Origin: Paenibacillus taihuensis
GTDB lineage: Bacteria > Bacillota > Bacilli > Paenibacillales > Paenibacillaceae
DNA length: 64,000 bases
Assembly: GCF_003386535.1 (NCBI RefSeq)
Contig: NZ_QTTN01000004.1
Span: forward strand, 124,001-188,000
Direction of reading: 5' to 3'
Below, one piece after another: positions 56,972 through 64,000 of the stretch. Within the stretch, counting starts at the first letter, position 1. Every line of letters begins with the position of its first letter. Below the pieces are notes generated by a model that was not told the DNA's origin, did not search any database, and saw nothing but the letters and a program-made list of their open reading frames with translations. The position numbers and the translations under genes are program-made.

Positions 56972-57129
56972 GCAAAGCTCCTCCTCATAGATCAAATCAA
57001 TTCATCAGTTTCTCATGAGCATTATAGCAAAGAACATAGGGATGCTTAAGTACGGAAATAGTGTTTAGTTGGTTACCTTAAAGTAACTAGAGACGCGTTG
57101 GCAATGACATGTTATGTATGACAAGAAAT

Positions 57130-57154
57130 CAAAAAGACGCTCAAATAGAGCGCC
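57130..57154 (-). terminator. Terminator behind the permease fragment
   Basis: GGCGCTC TATTT GAGCGTC followed on the minus strand by TTTTTGATTTC. Confidence 0.75.
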
Positions 57155-57180
57155 ATTAAGATAATCGTATACACGCACGC

Positions 57181-57690
57181 TTATTCCTTCACGCTTCCCA
57201 GCGTCATGCCGCTCATGAAGTACCGCTGCAGAAACGGATATACACACAGCACCGGCACCATGCCGAGGAAAATCTGCGCCGCGCGAACCGACCGGACGTT
57301 CAGCTTCGATAACAAGAGCAGCATCGAGGGGTCGGATATGGAAGACATATCCATACGGACGACGATCGTCTGCAAGTAGCTGGCTAGCGGATAGTGGCTC
57401 AGATCGTTCATATAGATCAGTCCATTGAACCATTCGTTCCAGTGCGAGACGATCGCGAACAGCGTAACGGTAGCAATCGAGGGCATCGAGAGCGGGATGA
57501 TGATCCGCCAGAGTGTCTGCCAATACCCGGCGCCGTCAATGAACGCCGACTCCGATAGTTCCTTCGGCAAGCCTCTGAAGAAGTTGAGCATCAAGATAAC
57601 GTTGAAGATCGGCAGCGCTCCCGGCAGCACAAGCGCCCAGATGCTGTCGAGCAGGTGCAGATTTCGCACGAACATATAGGTCGGTCCCTG
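57181..57690 (-). pseudogene. 3' fragment of a carbohydrate ABC transporter permease (YtcP/LplC type)
   Basis: About 165 residues corresponding to the C-terminal half of the permease: LLDSIWALVLPGALPIFNVILMLNFFRGLPKELSESAFIDGAGYWQTLWRIIIPLSMPS with the EAA-type loop, ending in the typical FLQRYFMSGMTLGSVKE. The N-terminal helices are missing; instead the DNA joins a decayed SLH gene in another frame near 57690. No partner permease or binding protein is nearby, so it is a leftover. Confidence 0.85.
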
Positions 57691-58250
57691 CTGACGCCGA
57701 TGGCGTTCTTGATCCAGTTCGACATCTCGCGATAATCGCGATAGGACTGCGCATGATCAGAAGTTTTGCCTGCAAGACTCAGCGTTCTAAGAAGGGATAC
57801 GGCCGCTTCTTCCCGGTTTACCGGATCGTTGGGGGCGAAAATAACCGTCGTATCCGGTAAGAATGTTGGCTGACGAGACCAGCTTGACGAATCCGTTGTA
57901 CCACGCGTCTTCGGCCACATCTTTGTAATTCGCAGCCCCGCTATCCTGGTAGCCGAACAATTCACGAGGAGCGCAGCCCACTCTGCCCTTGTGATCGGCT
58001 TGTTCGGGTCCGTTACCGGGTTCGACAAAATGTTGAAATACCCGGCCTTGGACCATTTGTTCAACGCATTGGCCGCCCAATGCCCTCCATAACCGGAGCC
58101 TGCTGCAACACTCTGAATGGACGGTGACGATGCAACTCCGGATCCGCCTGAAACATCGGAACCCGCTGCGAAGACTTGCGTTGCCATCAGCGTACTTAAC
58201 AAAAAGCTGATAAGCGGCAAGCGCTTCATTACCGGCAATCCTCTTCTCAT
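57691..58250 (-). pseudogene. Decayed SLH-domain surface protein gene, truncated at its 3' end
   Basis: Starts at ATG 58250 after GGGAGG, with a good signal peptide (LPLISFLLSTLMATQVFAAGS). The first SLH motif (GGHWAANALNKWSKAGYFNI ... ITRAEWAALLVN) is in one frame, the second (LFGYQDSGAANYKDVAEDAWYNGFVKLVSSANILTGYDGYF) in another, then the original frame returns (APNDPVNREEAAVSLLRTL). One T is missing in a TT run near 57960 and one C is extra in a C5 run near 57830. The gene then runs into the permease fragment. Confidence 0.85.
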
Positions 58251-58408
58251 TACTCATCCTCCCGCATGCAAATAGTAGTGCAGGCATTGCTGCAACAATT
58301 TAATTATAAGAGTCCTAGGAATGGAAGATATATCAAGATTTTTCTATTGATAGCACTTTCATATCTGATCTGCAGGAGGCGAGTGGACAAGAGTTTGTAC
58401 CCTTAAAA

Positions 58409-61818: not shown

Positions 61819-61948
61819 ATAAATCGCCTCCTGATCCAAGTGTACACAATAATCACTGACAATGACTGTCATTTTAGCATTGTTCGGCAGCATTCTTCAC
61901 TTTATACTTAATCTAGTTAATCACATTGCCACTAAGGAGCTGTTAACG

Positions 61949-62713
61949 CTGGGCATCGACGATTCTACCAAGTTGTTCAGCGATATGCTTTCGCTGACCG
62001 TGCAGCTCTTCTATGAGCGCGAGCGTTCGCTGGTCCTGCATGAGCCGCTTCAATCCGCTTCGTCCGTACTCGATATCGGCTGTGGGAACGGTGCTTATTT
62101 GGAGGCCGTCAAACAGGACTACCCGCATTTGCGATGCACCGGTCTCGAGAAGGACGAACGGATTTACCGCTTTACGGCGGCAAGAACCGCACCGGGTCTT
62201 CAATTTGTTCAAGCTGATTATCGGGAGCAGACGCCATGGGCAGAGCCGTTCGATGTCGTCATCGTTAGGCTGGTCGTTCTGCATTTACCGGACGTCGGAC
62301 ATTTTCTGACTTGGCTGCGATCCGTCACCCATGCCGGTTCCTTGATCATCGTCATCGATTTGGACGACGACGCAACCGGACCCCTGCCTGCCTACTGCCT
62401 GCGTCGATTCGAAACGCTATTCCGGGCTTCGCGCAAGCCGCTGCTGGATCGCTTCCCGAAGCCTGTCGGCGATCGACTGGCCGAATTAATGTCGGCCTTC
62501 GGCGGGTTCCAAACAAAGCTTCAGTCTTATCACATCCTGGCTGAAGACGGCGAAACGAAGCGGCTGATGCACCGCTATATGGAAACGGTGACCCGAATTA
62601 TGCAAAGTGGCCATCTGTCTGATGAGCGGAAGCAGGAATTGGACCACTGGCTTAGCGAGGAGTATTTTTCCTACAGGGCCGGCATGTTCGCCTTATCGTT
62701 TCAACGCAATTGA
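61949..62713 (+). CDS. SAM-dependent methyltransferase next to the RiPP precursor
   Basis: Class I fold: motif I SSVLDIGCGNGAYLEAV, GLEKDERIYRF, QADYREQTPWAEPFDVVIVRLVVLHLPDV, then IIVIDLDDDATGPLP. The start is unclear: an ATG at 61862 has no ribosome site, while AAGGAG (61935-61940) suits a codon near 61949, where the frame has only CTG. The next in-frame ATG is at 61985. About 255 residues from 61949. The isoprenoid-type gene begins 27 bases after it, so they form an operon. The substrate could be the peptide or an isoprenoid intermediate. Confidence 0.82.
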   Translation: MGIDDSTKLFSDMLSLTVQLFYERERSLVLHEPLQSASSVLDIGCGNGAYLEAVKQDYPHLRCTGLEKDERIYRFTAARTAPGLQFVQADYREQTPWAEPFDVVIVRLVVLHLPDVGHFLTWLRSVTHAGSLIIVIDLDDDATGPLPAYCLRRFETLFRASRKPLLDRFPKPVGDRLAELMSAFGGFQTKLQSYHILAEDGETKRLMHRYMETVTRIMQSGHLSDERKQELDHWLSEEYFSYRAGMFALSFQRN

Positions 62714-62740
62714 TTACCTATCCGGGAGGTCCAAGAAACG

Positions 62741-63688
62741 ATGACATGGAGATCTGATTACGAACATGAACTTGCCCATGTGTTCCTGGCAGCGGAAAAC
62801 CTGATCGATGCCTTTCCGGCACCGCTTAACGACAAAGGGCGCGAATATTTGCAAGCCTTCAACCCGTTGAATCCTTCCGGCACGAAGAACCATATCTGCT
62901 ACCTGCTTCCGTTTTGGATGCAGCCCATTACGGAGCTGGATTCACAGCGCTATCGCGATCTGTCGCTCGCTAACGTATTCGTCATGCTGTATTTTTTCAT
63001 CCAGGACGATCTCATGGATACCGCCCCGTCCGATTGGAAAGAACAGCTGGCCCTCGGTAATATGTTTCATCTAAGCATGCTTGACCTGTACCGCTCGTTG
63101 TTTGAAAGCAGCTCCCCTTTCTGGAACTATTATCGCGCTTACGTGACGGACTGGTCCATGGCGGTTGCCTATGAAACTCCTTTCGTCAGCCTATCTCCAG
63201 CCAAGCTCGCGCAAAAGGCGGCGCCTGTCAAATTGGCAAGCATCGGCGCCCTGCTTCTCGCTGGTCGCAACGAGCTTGAAAGCGCCGTTTCAGAGGCAGT
63301 TGATCTCGTATTGGCTACGCTGCAGATGTCTGACGATTGGGCCGATTGGGAAGAAGACTTCGACTTACATAACGCCAACAGCCTGATCAGCATGATTGCC
63401 TCCGAGAAAGAGGCGTCCCCTTCCCTGATTACGAGAACCGATATCAGGAATGCCATCTACATCGACGGCGCCTTAAGCCGTTACTCGCGGCTTGCACAAG
63501 AGAATGGCGAGGCTTTTGTAGGACTGGAGTTAACTCTCCCCTATTTGGCTGCGTTCCAATCTCATTTGGCTGACAAGCTGAAGGAGGCAAGCGAGCATTT
63601 GAGTCAAACGAAGAAACAACTGCTCGGCGGCGGATTTACGTACTGGCTTTCGCAAAATAAACCTCCCTTTCCGGTAATCAACGTGTGA
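62741..63688 (+). CDS. Class I isoprenoid-enzyme-like protein (terpene synthase / prenyltransferase fold)
   Basis: 315 residues, all-helical, no signal peptide. A first aspartate-rich motif QDDLMDT at residues 88-94, a Lys near 164 in the middle helices, and a second acidic motif DDWADWEED at 198-206 followed by NANSLISM. This pair matches class I trans-prenyltransferases and terpene synthases, which use Mg2+ to ionise a prenyl diphosphate. It does not match a standard FPP/GGPP synthase length or spacing. Ribosome site GGGAGG. It lies between the methyltransferase and the RiPP precursor gene. Confidence 0.75.
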   Translation: MTWRSDYEHELAHVFLAAENLIDAFPAPLNDKGREYLQAFNPLNPSGTKNHICYLLPFWMQPITELDSQRYRDLSLANVFVMLYFFIQDDLMDTAPSDWKEQLALGNMFHLSMLDLYRSLFESSSPFWNYYRAYVTDWSMAVAYETPFVSLSPAKLAQKAAPVKLASIGALLLAGRNELESAVSEAVDLVLATLQMSDDWADWEEDFDLHNANSLISMIASEKEASPSLITRTDIRNAIYIDGALSRYSRLAQENGEAFVGLELTLPYLAAFQSHLADKLKEASEHLSQTKKQLLGGGFTYWLSQNKPPFPVINV

Positions 63689-63716
63689 ACGAATGATCCC
63701 TTTCTCAGTGCGATAA

Positions 63717-63746
63717 TTGTCGGATTCTAGCGATTCATAGTAGAAT
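63717..63746 (+). promoter_or_regulatory. Candidate promoter of the RiPP precursor gene
   Basis: TTGTCG (63717-63722), 18-bp spacer, TAGAAT (63741-63746), about 62 bases before the precursor ATG and after the isoprenoid-type gene. Confidence 0.4.
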
Positions 63747-63751
63747 TGTCC

Positions 63752-63796
63752 CATTAATAGTGATAAACTTTACGTGGTAGTATATTCCTATTAATG
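63752..63796. repeat. Inverted repeat between promoter and RiPP precursor start
   Basis: CATTAATAG (63752-63760) and CTATTAATG (63788-63796) are perfect inverted copies 27 nt apart. Could be an operator for a dimeric regulator or a hairpin in the leader next to the GAGGTG ribosome site. Confidence 0.45.
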
Positions 63797-63808
63797 AGGT
63801 GCAGCCAG

Positions 63809-64000
63809 ATGTCCGAACAAGAATTGCAGCAACAGATCATCGAGAAAGCATGGTCCGACGAATCGTTCAAAGCCCAATTGCTAGCGGACCCGAAAGCAGC
63901 GTTGAAAGAAGCCTTCAATCTGACTTTGCCGGAAGACGTGGAACTGGTCGTCATCGAAGAAACGCCTTCCAAGCTCGCACTCGTTATCCCTCAAAACCCG
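63809..64000 (+). CDS. NHLP-type RiPP precursor, leader part (cut by window edge)
   Basis: 64 codons, open at the right edge. GAGGTG lies seven bases before the ATG. The translation, beginning MSEQELQQQIIEKAWSDESF and running through LLADPKAALKEAFNLTLPEDVELVVIEETPSKLALVIP, has the nitrile-hydratase-alpha-like leader pattern: helix with KAW..E.F...LL.DPKAAL, then LPE.V...V.EET...L.LV.P. Such leaders precede core peptides modified by cyclodehydratases, lanthionine synthetases, radical SAM or other enzymes. The core lies beyond position 64000. Confidence 0.8.
   Translation, partial: MSEQELQQQIIEKAWSDESFKAQLLADPKAALKEAFNLTLPEDVELVVIEETPSKLALVIPQNP

Follow-up and report, generated by a model that had tools for sequence, protein, structure and literature searches.

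Where the right end of the analysed stretch cuts through a peptide precursor gene (the stretch, here called the window, comprises the 64,000 nucleotides at 124001-188000 of a Paenibacillus taihuensis contig that runs on to 235529, past the window's right edge, in a genome of 6.8 Mb), an enzyme with the paired aspartate-rich motifs of isoprenoid chemistry is encoded between a methyltransferase and this precursor, which raises the question of what the three genes make together. We infer, with a probability of about 0.88, that the locus is a peptide-signalling unit of the PalQ/PalX/PalP type to which a methyltransferase has been added, the chemistry and the signalling both being putative. In all features tested (fold, residues, homology, NHLP precursor, tryptophan end, and kinase), the locus is a member of this system, which is known from Paenibacillus alvei (2023), where PalQ prenylates the C-terminal tryptophan of the NHLP peptide PalX and is encoded beside the kinase PalP (PMC10853753; review PMC13290415). 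The window locus shares with it the NHLP precursor with a C-terminal Trp, the published PalQ residues, and the neighbouring histidine kinase, and differs, as far as the accessible text of PMC10853753 goes, in the methyltransferase ahead of palQ, in a core ending ...TDSELSTW instead of DNVRRFFW, and in residue 39 of PalQ, which is A in the window protein and K in P. alvei. The positions of the features are collected in Table 1.

Table 1. Features of the methyltransferase-containing pal locus, numbered from the first letter of the window and continued beyond its edge at 64000; L002 gives the coordinates of the locus record.
Feature	Position	Strand	Basis or remark
Candidate RBS of methyltransferase gene, AAGGAG	61934..61939	+	Unchanged in five related species, as is the CTG 9 nt downstream
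Class I SAM-dependent methyltransferase, 254 aa, probable CTG start	61949..62713	+	Pfam matches, dN/dS, AlphaFold2
ATG-started ORF version of methyltransferase gene	61862-62713	+	
Candidate RBS of prenyltransferase gene, GGGAGG	62724..62729	+	Sequence reading
PalQ-type C-terminal tryptophan prenyltransferase, predicted, 315 aa	62741..63688	+	40% identity to L082 protein, fold
FARM, DDLMD, residues 89-93	63005..63019	+	Alignment of 24 homologues
Gln195 codon, counterpart of PalQ Q197	63323..63325	+	Unchanged across homologue alignment
SARM, DDWADWEED, residues 198-206	63332..63358	+	D198 and D202 invariant, equal to PalQ D200 and D204
Candidate RBS of precursor gene, GAGGTG	63796..63801	+	Sequence reading
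PalX-type NHLP precursor, 77 aa	Start 63809, window edge 64000, end 64042 (L002:8042)	+	TIGR03793; whole ORF L002:7809-8042
Two-way terminator, 15 pairs, between palX and kinase gene	64062-64094		Beyond window
PalP-type histidine kinase, convergent to palX	64103-66007 (L002:8103-10007)	-	HisKA + HATPase_c; beyond window

The 315-residue protein gave a confident all-helical AlphaFold2 model (pLDDT 90.8) whose closest solved folds are trans-prenyl diphosphate synthases (Foldseek probability 1.00, TM up to 0.71), and both Asp-rich motifs lie at the residues given for them in the preliminary description of this DNA. The Pfam comparison with polyprenyl and terpene synthases recommended there gave no match, the fold nevertheless being that of a trans-prenyltransferase; neither Pfam nor NCBIfam contained a matching family, prenyl synthases and terpene cyclases included, no convincing Pfam match was obtained for 24 PalQ homologues, and a PDB sequence search returned no match with the protein alone and only insignificant FPP synthase matches with a profile. 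Across the 24 homologues, D89, D90, M92, D93, Q195, D198, and D202 are invariant. The residues discussed for P. alvei PalQ are D89, D93, Q197, D200, and D204, of which Q197 is proposed to hold the indole NH (PMC10853753), and these correspond to D89, D93, Q195, D198, and D202 of the window protein. In the homology test, P. alvei PalQ (record K4ZRG6) was represented by the protein of locus L082, a locus assigned to its species by us: all six residues published for PalQ, among them K39, are found at the same numbers in its PalQ, and T-DNVRRF, with which the published core begins, occurs in its precursor, on which grounds L082 probably belongs to P. alvei or a near relative and its protein is probably PalQ itself. 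The window protein is identical to it at 125 of 309 positions (40%, E 4e-80). Its modelled fold, the published residues, and this homology place the 315-residue protein among the PalQ-type C-terminal Trp prenyltransferases. The L082 precursor gene downstream of PalQ changes frame after T-DNVRRF and loses the terminal Trp, through a strain mutation or a sequencing error, and DNVRRFFW followed by a stop occurs in 0 of 399 family genomes.

The NHLP leader that had been noticed in the ORF at the window edge was recognized by TIGR03793 at 68.6 bits as cut by the window and 72.0 bits when complete, against a curated cut-off of 50.9. The complete precursor, MSEQELQQQIIEKAWSDESFKAQLLADPKAALKEAFNLTLPEDVELVVIEETPSKLALVIPQNPADVVKTDSELSTW, stops 42 bases beyond the window with the last residues ...KTDSELSTW, and its terminal W77 is invariant in 36 homologues. 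Continuation past 64000 as a nitrile hydratase alpha subunit was considered and rejected, with a score of 30-36 against a cut-off of 250 (TIGR01323) and an ORF of merely 77 aa; by these profile scores, the ORF is an NHLP-type RiPP precursor and no nitrile hydratase subunit. The region right of 64000, where the preliminary description had hoped for a core peptide with its processing genes, supplied the core end with its terminal Trp and contained no NHLM transporters, maturase, or protease, the neighbour being a histidine kinase. Among 72 loci, the PalX C-terminus is either the Trp or, in 15 loci, a Trp followed by 1-2 residues (L036, L050, L051, L052, L056, L057, L062, L064, L066, L073, L076, L084, L088, L092, and L097), with L082 as the exception. 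Extension of the C-terminus by Ala abolished the activity of the published PalQ, and set against this result the 1-2 additional residues imply either trimming or a tolerant PalQ. The core of the window species is acidic, unlike that of P. alvei, and the cut site that would release DSELSTW is a guess. The earlier suggestion of a class I isoprenoid enzyme that prenylates an NHLP peptide agrees with PalQ/PalX in its motifs, the type of precursor, the Trp at the end, and the gene neighbourhood; by analogy with P. alvei, PalX is in all likelihood prenylated by PalQ at its C-terminal Trp.

The three window genes stand on one strand with short gaps, as described previously, namely 27 nt between the methyltransferase and PalQ and 120 nt between PalQ and PalX. 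The DNA from 61960 to ~65950, which holds these genes and the kinase, is 79-94% identical among five related species in 300-column steps, whereas identity in the flanks falls to ~40% on the right and to 59-76% just left of 61960. Such a conserved block with divergent flanks indicates that the association of the genes exceeds chance, and, as read from this conservation, the methyltransferase, palQ, palX, and the kinase form a four-gene unit in the window species. An ABC exporter gene right of the kinase (66343-68058) was left out of the unit because it lies outside the part over which the related species align. A promoter scan at the locus gave matches no more than chance. Farther left on the minus strand, 57065-58290 holds apparent gene remnants, in which an S-layer-type N-terminal part is followed in another frame by a truncated sugar ABC permease.

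The SAM methyltransferase of the preliminary description is a class I enzyme, with matches to Pfam Methyltransf_25/11/23 above the cut-offs. The CTG at 61949 and the upstream AAGGAG are invariant in five species, and this CTG aligns with the ATG start of L029; on this basis, the true start is probably CTG 61949-61951, and automatic annotation would choose 61862. The gene is under purifying selection, with NG86 dN/dS values of 0.19-0.29 in the five species. Its AlphaFold2 model (mean pLDDT 83) has as closest folds the RiPP methyltransferases BpumL and LahSB, small-molecule methyltransferases, and many others, including an FPP methyltransferase (9sm0), and FPP methyltransferase sequences also occur among its PDB sequence matches. 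These two sets of matches, together with the position of the gene directly ahead of palQ, would agree with the proposal of an enzyme that, in the manner of FPP methyltransferases, methylates a prenyl diphosphate and supplies PalQ with an odd-carbon donor for transfer to Trp. Against this, BpumL and LahSB rank above the FPP methyltransferase in a fold search that discriminates weakly between substrates, and in L033 and G011 (L100) the methyltransferase is encoded directly upstream of PalX with PalQ ~3 kb and ~16 kb away, respectively. The locally made methylated donor, one of the options raised at first, is therefore the weaker one and unlikely, since the methyltransferase tracks the precursor and not the prenyltransferase; for the same reason, the peptide is moderately favoured as its substrate. 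Strong methyltransferase homologues were found in 10 of 23 genus genomes, all 10 with PalX, and more distant ones occupy the same position in L041, L044, L067, L070, and L071. The terminal Trp of PalX is present in 15/15 loci with the methyltransferase and in 42/57 without it, a suggestive link at a nominal Fisher p of 0.03 that ignores relatedness. In L033:10166-12211 and L100:3835-5942, a VanY-type exported peptidase, which might have a role in maturation, the methyltransferase, and PalX are encoded consecutively, apart from PalQ. A short methyltransferase remnant ahead of PalQ in P. daejeonensis (L046:6792-6944) indicates that the gene is also being lost.

The convergent kinase is 634 aa long and probably carries a signal peptide; it further has an exported domain of ~150 residues and the domains HisKA and HATPase_c, and several helices are predicted to form a membrane region. 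Compared with solved structures, its transmitter matches Sporulation kinase B best (196 bits, the next match reaching 109), and from this resemblance its output is probably directed to the Spo0 phosphorelay. The candidate ligand is indicated by a clade of four species outside the window's genus, P. phytorum (L042), Root444D2 (L049), V4I3 (L047), and P. alginolyticus (L048), in which all pairs are similar in palQ (84-95% DNA identity) and right of the kinase gene (86-97%). Between these regions, a block from the last four palX codons to about codon 20-40 of the kinase, thus nearly the whole kinase (locus coordinates 8240 to ~10140), has been exchanged: it is 92-100% identical within the pairs L042/L049 (end ESIW) and L047/L048 (end ENMW) and ~76-82% identical between them, save one 250-base step at 90%. 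Within the block, the split {L042,L049}|{L047,L048} is favoured by 324 sites and each of the two alternatives by 2; outside it, no strong preference is seen in palQ (7, 7, and 8) or the right flank (13, 7, and 20), and the palX leader (0, 11, and 4) favours another grouping. The simplest reading of this swap would be that a ligand and its matching receptor were exchanged as one block, in the manner of the ComX/ComP pherotypes. The joint exchange of the PalX end and the kinase suggests PalP as the PalX receptor, and we consider it quite probable that the kinase is the receptor of the PalX-derived peptide. Over all loci, core and sensor distances show a weak partial correlation (0.19), the informative signal being confined to the close clade. 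A third haplotype of the block occurs in L043.

In Bacillus subtilis, the ComQ/ComX/ComP/ComA system (PMC4008528) likewise combines Trp prenylation by an isoprenoid-synthase-type enzyme with a membrane kinase encoded beside the precursor gene and with exchangeable specificity alleles. In contrast to the Pal locus, it has an internal Trp, no NHLP leader, one strand throughout, and a response regulator, whereas the Pal kinase is an orphan, convergent to palX, and palQ lies outside the swapped block. Identity with ComQXPA was rejected, as sequence families, strand arrangement, and regulator all differ: the window proteins gave no match to the ComQ/ComX families of Pfam and NCBIfam, and no response regulator was recognized among the listed ORFs right of the kinase. 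The Pal locus probably works like ComQXPA.

Many NHLP peptides are not signals, and the product could be an antimicrobial or otherwise secreted RiPP, with the kinase sensing something else, such as self-inflicted stress. PalQ prenylation of other peptides increased their antimicrobial activity, as reported in PMC13290415, but conserved genes for immunity or dedicated export are lacking here, most genomes of the family carry a single gene set, and the joint exchange of the PalX end and kinase fits a receptor, so that such a product is improbable.

For the favoured PalQ/PalX/PalP signalling unit, the following pathway may be proposed. The precursor would be guided to PalQ by its PalX leader. With Mg and a prenyl diphosphate of C10-C15 bound at its Asp-rich motifs, PalQ would prenylate indole C3 of the C-terminal Trp to give a tricyclic pyrroloindole, the product demonstrated for P. 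alvei (PMC10853753). A protease would then cut off the end of the precursor as a short peptide, for which the T|D cleavage in P. alvei makes DSELSTW a plausible sequence, and the methyltransferase may modify the same peptide, possibly at its C-terminal carboxylate. The exported peptide would be sensed by the convergent membrane histidine kinase, probably feeding the Spo0 phosphorelay; no dedicated exporter or protease conserved near the locus was found. The fullest form of this pathway, a pheromone prenylated at its C-terminal Trp and then methylated at the same residue, with a cognate sporulation-type kinase and with peptide end and kinase moving between species as one block, is a tentative and somewhat doubtful proposal. 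If true, such a pheromone would be a convergent counterpart of eukaryotic prenylated, carboxymethylated peptides. The eukaryotic CaaX and prenyl-peptide pheromones share C-terminal prenylation, and carboxyl methylation is a possible parallel that is a guess here; they differ in that Trp is modified instead of Cys and in that the enzymes are unrelated.

The initial remark that no described pathway with this trio was known holds for the trio with the methyltransferase, of which no mention was found in the accessible portions of PMC10853753 and PMC13290415, and fails for PalQ with its precursor, described from P. alvei. In the open-access literature available, PalQ/PalX is described as a peptide-lipidation tool and no biological role of the PalX peptide was found, nor was an earlier report of the methyltransferase form or the block swap; this form and the block-swap evidence for a peptide-sensor pair appear new. 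The co-inheritance of PalX end and kinase provides a concrete, testable reason for a pheromone/receptor pair, and the methyltransferase form could be a second bacterial lipid-peptide decoration that mirrors the eukaryotic prenyl-then-methylate order.

Co-occurrence, proposed earlier as a check, was borne out in the genus, where PalQ is present in 17 of 23 genomes, strong PalX (E <1e-25) in 17/17 of these and in 0/6 without PalQ, and methyltransferase homologues occur only with PalX. Across the Paenibacillaceae, PalQ was found in 328 of 399 genomes; of 72 distinct loci, 70 have PalX on the downstream side of PalQ, and 70 have a convergent kinase no more than 300 nt from PalX. A rival reading takes the 315-residue protein for an ordinary terpene cyclase or prenyl diphosphate synthase encoded near a RiPP precursor by chance. 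Its fold family and both Asp-rich motifs might suggest this, but the near-constant co-occurrence, the PalQ signature Gln, and the missing family matches make it highly improbable. A pheromone/receptor pair would span about four-fifths of the sampled Paenibacillaceae genomes and might be wired to sporulation. Two PalP-type kinases stand by one PalX in L069, L074, L078-L080, L083, L085-L087, L093, L098, and L099, and two PalX genes are accompanied by one kinase in L024, L026, and L027.
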